Assembly (NCBI GenBank): GCA_000247545.1
Contig: CP003316.1
Location: 1,955,233-2,019,232 of the forward strand
Direction: 5' to 3'
DNA: 64,000 nt
Source: Pyrobaculum oguniense TE7
Lineage (GTDB): Archaea; Thermoproteota; Thermoprotei; Thermoproteales; Thermoproteaceae
Made by a program: the position numbers and the translations under genes. The stretch's first letter is position 1. Every line of letters begins with the position of its first letter. Of this stretch, positions 2,174 through 51,506 are shown piece by piece. The notes below the pieces were generated by a model. It worked only from the letters and a program-made list of their open reading frames with translations, was not told the DNA's origin and did no database searches.

Positions 2174-2985
2174 GTTGCCGCCTTCACTACCCCCGTCCTC
2201 GAAGACCTAAGAGAAGACCTCGCTTCGAGGTTTTTCACAGTCTCACCACTGGGCGGGTTTGCGGCCCTGGTCGTGCTGGGGGCGGCGTTCGGCGCAACTA
2301 TACAATTCACGCAAGGCGGCGCACAGAAATTCGCAGTGGTTGTGAACGGAACCACGGAGCTGGGCGGGAGGTACGTGGAGATTTTGAAGAGGTTTGGCGG
2401 CGATGTATATGGTATTTCACAGAGCGTCTGTTAGACGCCTACGGCTTTGTGGTAGTGGTGCCTAGGAACTTCTCCCTGTCCGCAGTGGTTGAGGTCTACG
2501 CCAAGTACAGGGGGCTTTTCTCCCTCGCGCCGCCGCTTGTTCTAGACTCGGCGTCGGCCTCTGAAATGGGCTTGCCCCCGCGGCTGGTAGACGCCGTATT
2601 AATAGCTTATATTGACAGGCGGAGGCTGGCGGCCTCAGAGGCGGGCTCTATAATGGGCATGTCCGTGTTCTCGTGGGCTTTCGTTTTATTTTCCCGTTGT
2701 TATTGGCCTCCACCGCTGCAATTACCGTTGGCATGGAGAAAGAGAAGCGGACTTTTGAGCTTATTCTCTCCACGCCCGCCACGGCCCCTGGGCTAATAGC
2801 GGCGAAGCTCTTGAGCACTTTGATGCTCGCACTGATCCAATTCGCAGTGCTGTCAATCGGTTTGGTGATATATGTCAATATCTTTAAGGCAGTGCCTCCC
2901 CCATCAGCGCCTGGGCGGTGGTATTGTCGTCTCTTCTTTAGTAGCCCCATCTGTGGCGGCGTCTGTGGTATACGACGTTAGCTAT
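2174..2985 (+). pseudogene. decayed ABC-2 type permease, paralogue of the intact gene at 3754
   Basis: Three successive frames carry consecutive parts of one ABC-2 permease that matches the intact neighbour at 3754-4893. Frame 1 has DLREDLASRFF and FAVVVNGTTELGGRY. A frameshift near 2405-2430 leads into VEVYAKYRGLFSLAPP. Another near 2670 leads into LLLASTAAITVGMEKEKRTF and ELILSTPATAPGLIAAKL. A last fragment, VLSSLVAPSVAASVVYDV, ends near 2985, so roughly the C-terminal third is missing. It abuts another broken gene on the opposite strand. The frames are seen directly and homology to the neighbour is obvious by eye. Loss of function is inferred. Confidence 0.88.
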
Positions 2986-3708
2986 CCAGCCGTTGGCCCC
3001 TTCGACATAAGCATGGCGAGCCCCGTTGCCAAGCGGCCTTCGCACGCCACTACCAGCCCCCTCGAGTTGAGCAGGTCAAGGGCCAGGCGGTATGTGTAGC
3101 GCCGCTTTATCAGGAGGGGGGAGCACTGAATTGCGACGAGGTCCGCACTTGCCGAGACCTTCTCTAGGGCCGCCGCTGCTTTGGCCACTCTGTCGTCCCC
3201 AAAAAGCTTCAGAAGCTCGTCGTCCGGCTCCGAGGCGTCTACTGCTTCCTCGAACTTCTCCAGGGGCACAACCTCAACAGCCCAGCCAAGCTTCTCCCGG
3301 GCGGCCTGTGCTTGGTACGTCTCCGAGCCGATTAGAACCGCCTTGGCGCCCACCAGCGAGGAGGCGGTGTCGCGACTTTCTTTGCCCTTGTCGCGACATC
3401 CCCGCACTGCTTGTGGGAGGGGCAGTGGTAGGCTACTACGGGCAGACCCAGCGCCTCTATCTCGGCCTTGGCGTGGAGCACGCTGGCGAAGCCGTTGTGC
3501 TCGCCGAAGCCCAGCAACACAGCTCCGCGGGCGCCGCCTTTCTGACGGGATCAAGGGCAGCCGCCGTGGTGCCGCCAGTTGCGTGGACGATGAGGGGAAA
3601 CTTCTCAGGCTCTGGGTTTTTGAAAAACCCCACAGACTGTGATAGGCGCCGCGCCACCTCCTTCACAAATGACTCTCCATGGATGGGAGAATGTAGAAGG
3701 TAGGCCAC
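2982..3708 (-). pseudogene. decayed sugar-isomerase-like gene
   Basis: Read from 3708 downward, the protein starts MAYLLHSPIHGESFVKEVA, then shows FPLIVHATGGTTAAALDPV. The frame breaks near 3530, continues as LLGFGEHNGFASVLHAKAEI, breaks again near 3370, and ends with GAKAVLIGSETYQAQAAREK and LATGLAMLMSKGPTAG before the stop at 2982. The ATGG...HN..AS.LHA pattern resembles the N-terminal half of L-fucose/L-arabinose isomerase-like proteins. At least two frameshifts separate the parts. Its 3' end touches the decayed permease, which suggests a deletion junction near 2980. The family assignment is tentative; that the gene is broken is clear. Confidence 0.6.
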
Positions 3709-3727
3709 TTAGCACGGGATGCGCGCA

Positions 3728-3735
3728 TTTAAAAA
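3728..3735 (+). promoter_or_regulatory. TATA box of the ABC transporter operon
   Basis: The sequence TTTAAAAA lies about 23 nt before the GTG at 3754, the usual archaeal distance to a transcription start. The permease mRNA would therefore begin at or next to its start codon. Confidence 0.6.
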
Positions 3736-3753
3736 CTCTATCTTAGCTGAGGT

Positions 3754-4893
3754 GTGGGAGCATTCACGGCACTGGTGGTGAAGGACCTCCGGGAGATTTT
3801 GACATCTCGCTACTTCTTGGCTTCTCTTCTAGGCGGTTTTGTGATCTTAATAGCGCTGGGCGCCGTGATGGGGGCGTCGATAGAAACTGCCCAGAAGGCT
3901 ACTCAGAGTTTTGCAGTGGTGGTGGGGAACACCACAGAGCTTGGCCAGAGGTACGCGGAGCTGTTAAGGGAGCTCGGCGGCGTTTTGTACGAGAAGTTCT
4001 CCCCAGACTTGCTTGACAGTTACGGCTACGCCGTCGTGGTGCCGCCTAACTTCACACTCCCGGCAAAGGTGGAGGTGTATGCCAAATACAGAGGGTTGTT
4101 GTCCACGGCGGCGCCTCCCTTCGTAGAGCTAGCCGCGCAGAGGCTTGCCGAGGAGGTGGGCGTGCCGCCCCGGCCTATCAACGCGGAGCTCTACGTGTAT
4201 CTCGACGGCCGCGTGTTTAAGCCTGGGGAGGTGGCGATGTTGGCAAACCTCTTCCTCATATCTTGGATGTTTATGTTCCTGGTGCCTCTGCTTGTCGCCT
4301 CCACGGCGGCGGTTGCGGTGGGGCTTGAGAAGGAGAAGAGGACGTTTGAGCTTATCCTCTCGACGCCGGCTACTGCGAGGACGCTCGTCGCTGCGAAGCT
4401 CACAAGCGCCGTGGCGCTGGCGTTTATACAATTCGCCGTGATGGCCGCGGCGCTTATCTTCTACTTCTATAACCTTTCCAGAGCCGCACCCCCGGTGTCC
4501 TCCGGCGAAGTGGCGGGGGATGCAGTTGCCCTGCCGCCCGCGTTGATCGCCCCGGTGGCTTTGTCCACGCTGGCCTTGTCCTTGGCGCTGTTGGGGCTCG
4601 CGTTCATAGCAGCGACCAGAGTAGAGGACATCAAGACGGCGCAGAGCGTCGTGCCGATGGTGGTGTTCCCCCTCCTCGTGCCGTCCTTCGCCGCGATCTT
4701 CGGCACGGTGGAAGGCCTAGAGGCCTACCCCTTCGTCCACCCACTGGCCGTGGCGTACTCGGCGATGGTTGGGCAGTGGGATAAGGTCTACGCCTTTCTC
4801 GCAACTGATTGGGCCTTGGCCATCGCCGTCGTAGCATCTATACTTAAATTCGTCACCCCGGACTACCTCATAACTGGGAGGTGGAGGCGATGA
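3754..4893 (+). CDS. ABC-2 type transporter permease
   Basis: This 379-residue membrane protein forms the channel half of an ABC-2 exporter with the ATPase encoded directly downstream. An N-terminal membrane segment (about residues 25-45) is followed by a large external loop. A block of about five hydrophobic segments follows from about residue 170 onward. The cytoplasmic stretch GLEKEKRTFELILSTPATAR after the second membrane segment is typical of the NatB/ABC-2 group. The GTG start is supported by the TATA box 23 nt upstream. The last codons overlap the ATPase start as ATGA, so the two are co-translated. Substrate unknown; export of a small molecule, peptide or ion is likely. A decayed paralogue lies at 2174-2985. 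Confidence 0.88.
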   Translation: MGAFTALVVKDLREILTSRYFLASLLGGFVILIALGAVMGASIETAQKATQSFAVVVGNTTELGQRYAELLRELGGVLYEKFSPDLLDSYGYAVVVPPNFTLPAKVEVYAKYRGLLSTAAPPFVELAAQRLAEEVGVPPRPINAELYVYLDGRVFKPGEVAMLANLFLISWMFMFLVPLLVASTAAVAVGLEKEKRTFELILSTPATARTLVAAKLTSAVALAFIQFAVMAAALIFYFYNLSRAAPPVSSGEVAGDAVALPPALIAPVALSTLALSLALLGLAFIAATRVEDIKTAQSVVPMVVFPLLVPSFAAIFGTVEGLEAYPFVHPLAVAYSAMVGQWDKVYAFLATDWALAIAVVASILKFVTPDYLITGRWRR

Positions 4894-33308: not shown

Positions 33309-34099
33309 TCACTTGGCCAGCGCCTCTTCTAAAAGCCTAGTGGCGTTGTTCACAGCCTCCATTAGCACGCCCACTGCGCCACCCCCTATTTTTATCTCGT
33401 CGCCTCTCTCCTGTATTTCAAGCGCGTTGTCAATGTTAACTAGCTCTACGCTCACGTCGAATACTACTAGCCGCGTCCTGTTGACGAGGAGAAGCGCGGT
33501 GAACCTACAGCTGTCATACTTGTTTATTACGCCGCCGCCAGGGCCGGTATCGAAGGATTTGCCACAGAAGGGCTGGAGGGCGCTGAACACAAATCCTATC
33601 ACTGTTTGGTTAGCCCAGGGCTCAAATACCTCGCCTCTGAATATTCCACCGTTTACTATGTAGGCTTCGGAGAGCCACGGGTATTTCTTTACTAGTCTGG
33701 AAAGTGCGGAGCGGAAGGGGTGTGGAACCAAGTTCTCAGGCGCTTTACTATACGTCTTGTTCCCTACTCTGAACTCCCTAACTTTGCCATTTACCACCTC
33801 TCCACGGTGGTCATGCCCAACCATATATCCTCTGCTGTGATCTCTAGCTTCAGCCGATCGGCTATCTCGTATTTGAGGTAGGTCTTGTTGATTACAAAGC
33901 TGGTCACCTTGACATAGTTGCCTTCGCACGGCTTTTTGAGCATCAACCTGCCTGACTCATTAGCCAAGTCGCAAGCAAAGACATCTACTGTTGTTTTCAC
34001 CCCAGGCGGCTGCTTCAGCACGAAATAGATAGAGGCGGGTATACCCACTACCAAGGCGAGGACAGCCGCGACTACTACGTAGAACTTCCTCAATTTCAT
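33309..34099 (-). pseudogene. frameshifted N-anchored extracellular protein, second gene of secreted module 1
   Basis: ATG 34099 opens MKLRKFYVVVAAVLALVVGI, a basic N-terminus plus one membrane helix. An external domain reads VDVFACDLANESGRLMLKKP and ends at TAA 33791. The next frame reads VVNGKVREFRVGNKTYSKAP from about 33797 to the stop at 33309, strand-rich with a helical tail ATRLLEEALAK. The two parts overlap by a few codons and look like one 260-residue protein split by a single indel near 33795, but a restart at GTG 33797 would also make the second half as a separate protein. ATG 34099 overlaps the previous gene's TGA. The same arrangement occurs at 50166-51506. Function unknown. Confidence 0.6.
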
Positions 34100-34930
34100 G
34101 GCTTTACAAACCATGCTGCAAATGGTTGGTCATACTCCTCTGATAGACACCACAACTTACACTTCCAGAAGCTAGCCTGTCCTAATACGCCTAAGTAAAA
34201 GTTGCTGTTAGGCTTTGCTAGAACTGTAAGACCGTACATCCAATCCCACGACATTGACCCCCAGGAATTTCCTAGGGAGCTATCGCCTCCGTCGTATATG
34301 TACTGTCTCCACTCGACTGATCTTGCGTCTAGTACATTCAGTGACACTTGTATCCTAGGAATACTTTCGGTCAGTGTAAAGGTAACGGAACTACTTTGAT
34401 CTTTACCTGTGCGCTTACACTAAATGTCACAGTCCTTGTTACCGTCCCCACATTATATTCTCCGCTGTTAGGAACTGTGGAGCCGGGGATCGCGGGGCCT
34501 ATATGCAGTTACTAGAAAGCGTATATACTAAGTACTGAGAATTGAGATCTAAGGAGTACCATGAGGCGCATATGTGTCGAGCCATCTGCGTAGGTACAGC
34601 ATTGTCCTTCACAATCCCGCCAGTTGTATGCTTCCAACCACTGGAAGTATTTGGCACGCTATTCACCCGCATAAGTTGGATCCAAACCCACCTGTACGTG
34701 CCGTCGTTTGCGTAGTAGACATAGTACTGTTTTTGAGGACATACTATAACATGCACACTGACCCATCCCCCAACTCTTTGGGTATTCACAAAGGGGCTAT
34801 TACCATATATAGGTGTCTCTGGGCAGTTCCAGCTATAGCTGGGAGCGCTCTGCGCACTAACCAATTGGGCGGAGGTCACTATACCTAGCACTGTTATTAG
34901 CACCATTGTAGCTAATTGGGGGTTAGTCAT
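34096..34930 (-). pseudogene. frameshifted Trp/Tyr-rich secreted protein, first gene of secreted module 1
   Basis: ATG 34930 opens a signal peptide, MTNPQLATMVLITVLGIVTS. The exported part reads CPQKQYYVYYANDGTYRWVW and stops at TAG 34499. Text continues in a second frame as GPAIPGSTVPNSGEYNVGTV to about 34390, then in a third as FTLTESIPRIQVSLNVLDAR and SWDWMYGLTVLAKPNSNFYL down to TGA 34096. Two indels split a protein of about 275 residues. It is a distant relative of the protein at 50768-51506: CPQKQYYVYYANDGTYRW matches CVQ.NPNYIYVNGKPMYPW, and SWDWMYG...SFWK matches AWAWKFG...NYWK. Function unknown; a secreted, possibly fibre-forming or adhesive protein is a guess. Confidence 0.65.
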
Positions 34931-34991
34931 GGGAGGCTTTGTAAGCCACCTTTTTTTTAACGTTAGATTAACAAAGAAATTTGTTTAGACA

Positions 34992-50165: not shown

Positions 50166-50771
50166 TTAAGAGGTGTGCTTTCCGTATATCTGTTCGTGTT
50201 TCTGCTTGGCTTTGTTTAGGACTTGTTCTTTATCTCCGCCGCAGATTATTACCAGGGTGGCGTTGTTTTTCCCCACCATGACTACTTCTGTGAAGTAGAC
50301 TACGTACCTCTTCCCCCTTGCGGAGACCTCTCTCATGGAGACGTGTGCGGGTGTGCCGAAAGCCGTTAGGGTTTGGTTTTCTTTCAGTACTACGCTGATG
50401 TCAGCCGTTCCGTAGCCCTCCGTGGGCAGTACCACGATGCTGAACACGTAGCCGTCGCTGGAGGGTGTGAAGGAGGCCTTCCCCCTGGCGGGTTCTGAAT
50501 AGTCCTTTTTCAAGTCCTCGGGCAGATCCTCGATGTCTTTTATGGGTAGCCACAGCTCCTCGCCGGCTTTGAAGAACTTGCCCTTGCCCAAGATCTTCAG
50601 CCCGCACACCTCGAATCTGGCTGTCTTTGTGCCGTTGTCCGGCGATATGAAGAGGCTGAGCTCCTCCAGCCCCGGCCAAGGCTCAGCCTCCTCCTTCCCC
50701 GCCGTCAGGAGGAGCAAACTGCCCATAAGCGCCACCGCCAGCACCACCCCGAGCAAAACTAGGGGCCTCAT
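50166..50771 (-). CDS. N-anchored extracellular protein, second gene of secreted module 2
   Basis: The 201-residue protein starts at ATG 50771, which overlaps the preceding gene's TGA (ATGA). The N-terminus MRPLVLLGVVLAVALMGSLL is one membrane helix or signal. A strand-rich external domain (VFSIVVLPTEGYGTADISVV) and a Lys-rich helical tail (DKEQVLNKAKQKHEQIYGKH) follow. Placement, topology and the ATGA overlap match the second gene of module 1 (33309-34099). The sequence match between the two second genes is weak. Here the frame is intact. Function unknown. Confidence 0.72.
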   Translation of the reverse strand: MRPLVLLGVVLAVALMGSLLLLTAGKEEAEPWPGLEELSLFISPDNGTKTARFEVCGLKILGKGKFFKAGEELWLPIKDIEDLPEDLKKDYSEPARGKASFTPSSDGYVFSIVVLPTEGYGTADISVVLKENQTLTAFGTPAHVSMREVSARGKRYVVYFTEVVMVGKNNATLVIICGGDKEQVLNKAKQKHEQIYGKHTS

Positions 50772-51506
50772 ACCCGCCACGTCACGTCGTAGCCGTATGC
50801 TATGTAGGTACATGGGTAAGGCCACGCGCTCTTCCAGTAATTCGTGCGTGCGGCGTATACCCCTCTGACACTTCCCGCGTTTACGTCTACTAGTGCTGCG
50901 GCTCCGAATTTCCACGCCCACGCGCTGTCTGAATAGAGGCCTCCCGTTGCCAAGGCTCTATCCCACATCGTCCTGGTGGAGGTAAGCGAGCTAGCCCTAG
51001 TCTCGTTTTTAGTTATCATATCTTGCCACTTATACTCAATACTAATGGATATGCCAATTCTTCGAAGATCCACCGTGACGCCGAAGCTCTGCCATCTTAT
51101 CGATGAATCGTCAATAGTCCTACCCGGCACGGGAGAGTAGTAAGTGCCAAGTAAACTAGTGTATAATGCATTAGACATGAGGTCGATCCTCACATCTTGC
51201 ATTGTGGCGCCGCATCTGTCGTTAACCCCGCTAGCCGTGACCCGCCAACCTGCTTTTTCATTAGGGTCAGTATTCACGCCTATTAAGAAAATCCATGGGT
51301 ACATAGGTTTTCCATTCACATATATGTAGTTAGGATTTTTGGACACAAACTCCATAATCTATTTTTATGTAGTTACCGCTTGAGTCGTAAATACCTTGAT
51401 TGACAACCCAATTATTTACGCAATTCTGCCAGCTGTCTGCATGAACTAGTGCTACGACTAACATCAGCGTTAGTAGCGCCTTAACCGCTATTTTGGGTAA
51501 TTCCAT
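50768..51506 (-). pseudogene. Trp/Tyr-rich secreted protein with one frameshift, first gene of secreted module 2
   Basis: ATG 51506 opens a signal peptide (LPKIAVKALLTLMLVVALVH). The exported part runs CVNNWVVNQGIYDSSGNYIK and stops at TAA after GVCVQKS. Removing one base from the T5 run at 51336-51340 joins it to NPNYIYVNGKPMYPWIFLIG and on to TGA 50768, giving about 245 residues. The C-terminal AWAWKFGAAALVDVNAGSVR and YAARTNYWKSAWPYP match the module 1 protein. A single slip in a 5-nt run could be a real frameshift, a reversible (phase-variable) slip or a sequencing error. An unrelated restart at ATG 51355 is also possible. Function unknown. Confidence 0.7.

Follow-up and report, generated by a model that had tools for sequence, protein, structure and literature searches.

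Genes for a secreted protein (gene A) and a membrane-anchored partner (gene B) form pairs in Pyrobaculum, and decay of these pairs is one-sided: A is lost and B is kept. This pattern, which was not noticed in the preliminary description of the sequence, is the clue to function. Orphan immunity genes survive the loss of their toxin as B outlasts A, and A and B are therefore proposed as a toxin and immunity pair, in which A may be a secreted, bacteriocin-like archaeocin and B the immunity protein against it, tethered at the cell surface. This reading is put first, at a probability slightly short of even, and a binding complex at the cell surface is put second, as a doubtful one. From the decay pattern we infer that A may be toxic. 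The supporting observations are the sequence features of A and B, their pairing and overlap, the homology of the A proteins, the one-sided decay, and purifying selection on B.

The window is a stretch of 64,000 nucleotides (G000:C1:1955233-2019232) from Pyrobaculum oguniense TE7 (G000), whose two contigs, the larger of 2,436,033 bp, add up to 2,452,920 bases. The published genome consists of a chromosome of 2,436,033 and an extrachromosomal element of 16,887 (PMC3558965). Two modules are located in the window. In module 1, A1 (34930-34096) overlaps B1 (34099-33309) by ATGA, and in module 2 the same overlap joins A2 (51506-50768) and B2 (50771-50166); the coordinates, strand, gene order and overlap first reported for both modules are correct. 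The features are as follows.

34951..34960, minus strand: TATA-like A/T run, a promoter candidate about 24 nt upstream of the A1 start, by-eye inspection only.
34499..34930, minus strand: A1 5' piece of 143 aa, with signal-like N-terminus and the first Cys/Trp/Tyr-rich half of the secreted protein; ORF, 62-68% identical to the A proteins of G001 and G009.
34099..34499, minus strand: rest of A1, interrupted by 1-nt frameshifts near 34490 and near 34404 and carrying a 12-nt in-frame deletion; tblastn and DNA alignment.
34096..34099, minus strand: ATGA, the start of B1 overlapped by the stop of A1; sequence, with the same overlap in most other pairs.
33791..34099, minus strand: B1 5' piece, with N-terminal membrane anchor and the start of the outer domain; ORF, N-terminus hydrophobic in intact relatives.
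33309..33803, minus strand: B1 3' piece, the remaining outer domain past a 1-nt frameshift; ORF, 57-84% identical to B1 of G001, G003 and G009.
51330..51506, minus strand: A2 5' piece of 58 aa, with signal-like N-terminus, ending after a frameshift within a short run of the nucleotide A; ORF and DNA alignment with the intact G003 copy.
50768..51346, minus strand: A2 main body of about 190 aa, the Cys/Trp/Tyr-rich secreted part; ORF, 77% identical to the intact G003 A protein.
50768..50771, minus strand: ATGA, the start of B2 overlapped by the stop of A2; sequence.
50166..50771, minus strand: intact B2 of 201 aa, with N-terminal signal anchor, predicted outward-facing domain and three N-glycosylation sequons; ORF.

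According to ORFs and tblastn, A1 now lies in three frame pieces (about 34903-34484, 34499-34401 and 34407-34099), of which the tblastn pieces 34499-34401 and 34407-34099 are 67-73% identical to the intact A protein of G001. B1 is broken once, near 33803, so module 1 carries three separate frameshifts (two in A1, one in B1) and the 12-nt deletion. A2 has a single frameshift near 51340, a 1-nt insertion by ORFs and DNA alignment. Relatives of B2 are present in four other Pyrobaculum genomes.

The A proteins are 240-275 aa long, have a signal-like N-terminus with no further hydrophobic segment after it, and contain no Pfam domain. The motifs first quoted from the two window proteins are present in both: VCPQKQYYVYYANDGTYRW in one corresponds to VCVQ..PNYIYVNGKPMYPW in the other, SWDWMYG to AWAWKFG, and SFWK to NYWK. 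Local alignment of A1 with A2 scored 72 for the N-terminal and 55 for the C-terminal piece (maxima of 300 shuffles 55 and 46, respectively), and pairwise alignments of three full-length relatives are 14-20 SD above shuffles. The similarity suggested for the two first proteins is thus one of homologs, as the alignment beats all 300 shuffles. An A profile recovered near-full copies at E below 1e-50, some of these copies having been in the profile. Invariant columns of the first A alignment are P, W, T, G, D, T, and Q within P(N/D)...(G/N)W..T..G....D.....TQ. Neither A nor B matched a known family in Pfam, NCBIfam, PHROGs, PADLOC, PDB, or viral collections, and the initial remark that no named family fits holds against both sequence and structure libraries. 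A weak antibody-chain match to A was dismissed, and two further weak matches of A in P. oguniense (G000:C1:2106020 and 1198657), which coincide with long genes of unrelated kind, opposite or across them, are attributed to chance. An AlphaFold model of A, computed from the WP30 protein and the three window pieces, lacked a deep alignment and was unusable (pLDDT 32).

Profile searches found A in five of 398 Thermoproteota genomes (81 genomes of the class examined), all of them Pyrobaculum. Outside this genus there is one A relic, in a second genus (G016), just upstream (L096 2590-2670) of an intact B of 216 aa. Besides P. oguniense, the genomes include G001, which we take to be P. aerophilum IM2, G005, presumably P. 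neutrophilum, and G006, Pyrobaculum sp. WP30 (CP012158). A search for intact homologous pairs outside the window found them in three Pyrobaculum genomes: G001 (L039 4139-5763), G003 (L014 about 2870-4200) and WP30 (L062 5965-7402), with the stop of A overlapping the start of B in every case. The first impression of a duplicated and decaying family of secreted pairs is borne out by these intact pairs, the homologous A proteins and the broken copies.

At all 14 loci where A or an A relic was found, B or what remains of it follows immediately downstream. Since 14 of the 16 loci keep A or its remains beside B, linkage supports well the earlier suggestion that A and B probably work as a pair. The overlap is ATGA in most pairs, GTGA in one, and 14 nt in WP30, which suggests that both genes are co-transcribed. 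Overlaps of 4 nt are the commonest kind in prokaryotes, and therefore ATGA alone is not diagnostic.

Locus 1 comprises window module 1, a tandem module pair in G001 and one module each in G003 and G009. The first G001 copy has both genes broken and the second is intact (L039 2230-5763). A Nitro_FeMo-Co gene adjoins window module 1, and a shorter counterpart is located between the two G001 modules on the other strand. Locus 2 comprises window module 2 and the modules of G001, G003 and G009, with differing neighbourhoods. In WP30, G003 and G009, locus 3 is next to a gene for an M16 peptidase; in G001 a B3 is accompanied by an A relic. B2 of G005 is an orphan, lacking an upstream A, and a dead B1 is located elsewhere in that genome. 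The patchy distribution, the limitation of A to one genus, the species-dependent neighbourhoods of locus 2 and the tandem duplication in G001 would suit cargo or residue of a virus or mobile element of Pyrobaculum that has been decaying since integration. That origin is improbable, however, as relatives were found in none of IMG/VR, phage records and PHROGs, no virus hallmark genes were identified nearby, housekeeping genes occupy the flanks (AFOR, RtcB, His_biosynth, KaiC, amidase, M16), and locus 3 retains its M16 neighbour in WP30, G003 and G009.

Other secreted genes occur near the modules. A family with a common N-terminal leader (MEYAKPINPGTAAG...KLAALAA) and differing C-terminal parts (L040 4079-5764, L041 4086-4850, L043 2683-3174; relic L040 1900-2007) has several copies near locus 1 in G003, G009 and G005, is also present in G004 and G015, and left weak relics upstream of A at locus 3 (L063 2857-2916, L064 3149-3211). 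It resembles a family of polymorphic surface proteins. In G009, the locus 2 module is followed downstream by a gene for a secreted GDSGG protein, trypsin-type-like by a weak NCBIfam match, and this gene overlaps that of a 287-aa protein whose C-terminal tail is hydrophobic (L016 4613-5410 and 5401-6264). In the G003 counterpart (L014 4499-5571) the gene of the protease-like protein is broken and that of its neighbour is intact, so here again the secreted gene is lost and the anchored partner kept.

The B proteins have a single N-terminal anchor and 3-8 N-X-S/T sequons, as compared with 0.3-1.7 in shuffled versions; the excess was seen in all B proteins tested and not in A proteins, which have 0-1. 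With so many sequons, the outer domain of B likely faces the outside of the cell. B1 and B2 of the window are similar in build, with no detectable sequence homology to each other. B1 and B3 have in common the anchor and the first outer segment, with the pattern C-L-x(4)-G-x-L-x-L-x-G-x-C (profile comparison E 1.8e-5). A test for shared ancestry of B2 with the other two, B1 and B3, found none, and only the build is common (anchor, about 200 residues, sequons). One A family is thus accompanied by two B families between which no sequence relation was detectable. The AlphaFold model of WP30 B (pLDDT 65) has an anchor helix, a beta-rich domain and a C-terminal helix; query TM-scores in Foldseek against PDB were only about 0.11-0.18, and no fold is claimed. 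Weak matches of the B1 piece to RegB and DUF4229, of B3 to Claudin_2 and of B2 to Gastrotropin (E 0.6) were dismissed, as was a B2-like match in G071 (E 0.003) spanning the hydrophobic N-terminus only.

Of four comparisons of B at loci with a broken A, three show purifying selection, with dN/dS of 0.18 for B2 (G000/G001), 0.20 for B3 (G001/G009) and 0.30 for B1 (G003/G009); B3 of G003/G009 has a ratio of 1.6 from 18 changes, with no sign of constraint. At locus 2, A of P. oguniense and G003 is 77% identical and B only 41% (window 50166-50771; L014 3595-4200), due either to unequal evolutionary rates or to a partner swap.

Sixteen loci, from a small genome sample confined to one family, were scored for the state of A and B. 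Both genes are intact at three (the second copy of G001, locus 2 of G003, locus 3 of WP30) and dead at another three (window module 1, the first copy of G001, locus 1 of G005). At ten, B is open while A is either dead or missing: window module 2, loci 2 and 3 of G001, loci 1 and 3 of G003, loci 1, 2 and 3 of G009, the locus of G016, and the orphan of G005. An intact A with a dead B was found at none of the 16. The B frame of G001 locus 3 is altered and has a longer tail, and B of G003 locus 1 has a GTG start. Ten to none has odds of about 0.001 at equal chance of first loss and of 0.0025 if A represents 55% of the target; G003 and G009 are close relatives and not all losses are fully independent, but their lesions differ. 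Stops, 1-nt indels, an internal deletion and 5' truncation were identified in A by DNA alignment, varying by genome:

G001 copy 1: stop.
G009 locus 1: stop, different from that of G001 copy 1.
G009 locus 2: 1-nt deletion.
G001 locus 2: 5' half gone.
G003 locus 1: only the 3' quarter left.
G009 locus 3: internal deletion.

The breaks could be unreal, caused by homopolymer sequencing error or representing programmed frameshifting, in which case A would be expressed everywhere. The P. oguniense genome was sequenced largely by 454 (PMC3558965), and what breaks A2 is a single base in a short run of the nucleotide A. A2 of G003 and G009 is also strongly constrained (12 silent and five replacement changes, ratio 0.12), and this constraint until recently means that A is not junk. 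Nevertheless, the lesions differ in kind and place across loci and genomes, including stops, a large internal deletion and 5' truncations, no slippery site is common to them, and window module 1 alone has its three frameshifts and 12-nt deletion, which makes unreal breaks very improbable. If window A2 and G009 locus 2 are left out (a single indel each, in a 454-based or draft genome), the count is 8 to 0, at about 0.004.

A broken secreted gene with a kept partner suggests an undescribed toxin with a protective immunity protein. On the side of toxin and immunity, A combines a signal-like N-terminus with a gene overlapping that of its partner, B was at no scored locus seen to be lost before A (10 vs 0 loci), and an orphan B is present in G005. 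A would be a secreted antagonistic protein, probably stabilised by disulphides, and B would be held by its N-terminal helix with a glycosylated domain outside, where it may bind and neutralise A at the surface of the producing cell. Through the ATGA overlap, translation of the two genes would be coupled, and B would be made whenever A is made. Where A is no longer worth making it would decay; where neighbours still make A, B would be kept, leaving orphan immunity genes. Several points speak against this. B could have its own function and so outlive A, and identities of 77% for A2 and 41% for B2 (G000/G003) mean that the partners are not diverging in step. B3 of G003/G009, with its few changes, also lacks a sign of constraint. 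Secreted toxins more commonly have immunity proteins that are integral to the membrane or located in the cytoplasm. Searches of Pfam, NCBIfam, PHROGs, PADLOC and PDB sequences recognised no toxin domain in A, and neither a toxin fold nor a catalytic motif was identified, although a new toxin family would likewise give no match.

A lasting surface complex, such as an adhesin, an S-layer-associated structure, a ligand receptor or a binding protein, would also have a signal-bearing A, an anchored B, and conserved order and overlap. In it, B would hold the exported A at the membrane, A would be under weaker selection and would vary or decay, and B would have some function of its own. Trp/Tyr-rich extracellular proteins with an even number of Cys are common among binding proteins, and the leader family places other secreted proteins near locus 1 in G003, G009 and G005. 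However, a bare anchor is not expected to be kept in 10 of 10 single-loss cases, mostly under purifying selection, nor as an orphan in a genome without any A, and the surface complex is considered unlikely. With toxin and immunity as the preferred reading, the pairs may represent a new family of protein antibiotics of Thermoproteales, in which a glycosylated, outward-facing, tethered B traps the toxin and species differ in active toxins and orphan immunities; this wider claim is tentative.

To our knowledge, few archaeal protein antibiotics have known genes, and a literature search found no paper naming both Pyrobaculum and archaeocins. If A is an archaeocin, Pyrobaculum would be a test bed, with at least three genomes carrying intact A and B and others B alone, and it would become predictable who inhibits whom and who is immune. 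The immunity protein would then act outside the cell, in front of the membrane.

Three known systems can be compared with the A/B pairs. VARTIG modules of Thermococcales have a secreted protein gene followed by membrane protein genes, are strain-variable and contain pseudogene fragments (PMC8416519). The pairs are similar in being an archaeal secreted gene with a membrane-protein gene, variable between strains and with pseudogene remains. VARTIG comprises a large immunoglobulin-domain protein and small-gene arrays, whereas A has no recognised Ig domain and the module has two genes; no large Ig-domain operon head was found, A being 240-275 aa and free of Pfam domains. Bacteriocin and effector-immunity pairs also have a toxin gene beside its immunity gene, often close-packed, diverse immunity, and orphan immunity, which is documented for T6SS and rAID (PMC12247911) and for Serratia Rhs (PMC10539506). 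Unlike effector/immunity pairs, A/B come without secretion apparatus, polymorphic carrier protein or recognised toxin domain, and B is sequon-rich and predicted to face outside. Sulfolobicins SulA and SulB (with sulC) of Sulfolobales are encoded by adjacent genes for exported antimicrobial proteins in some lineages only, and a truncated toxin-gene copy is known (PMC3718332, PMC10117752); their activity needs both proteins and is found on vesicles (PMC10117752). Compared by description, the A/B pairs are like sulfolobicins in adjacent genes, an exported product, hyperthermophilic hosts of Thermoproteota, lineage restriction and broken copies. Both SulA and SulB are needed to kill, whereas B looks like the kept, anchored partner.
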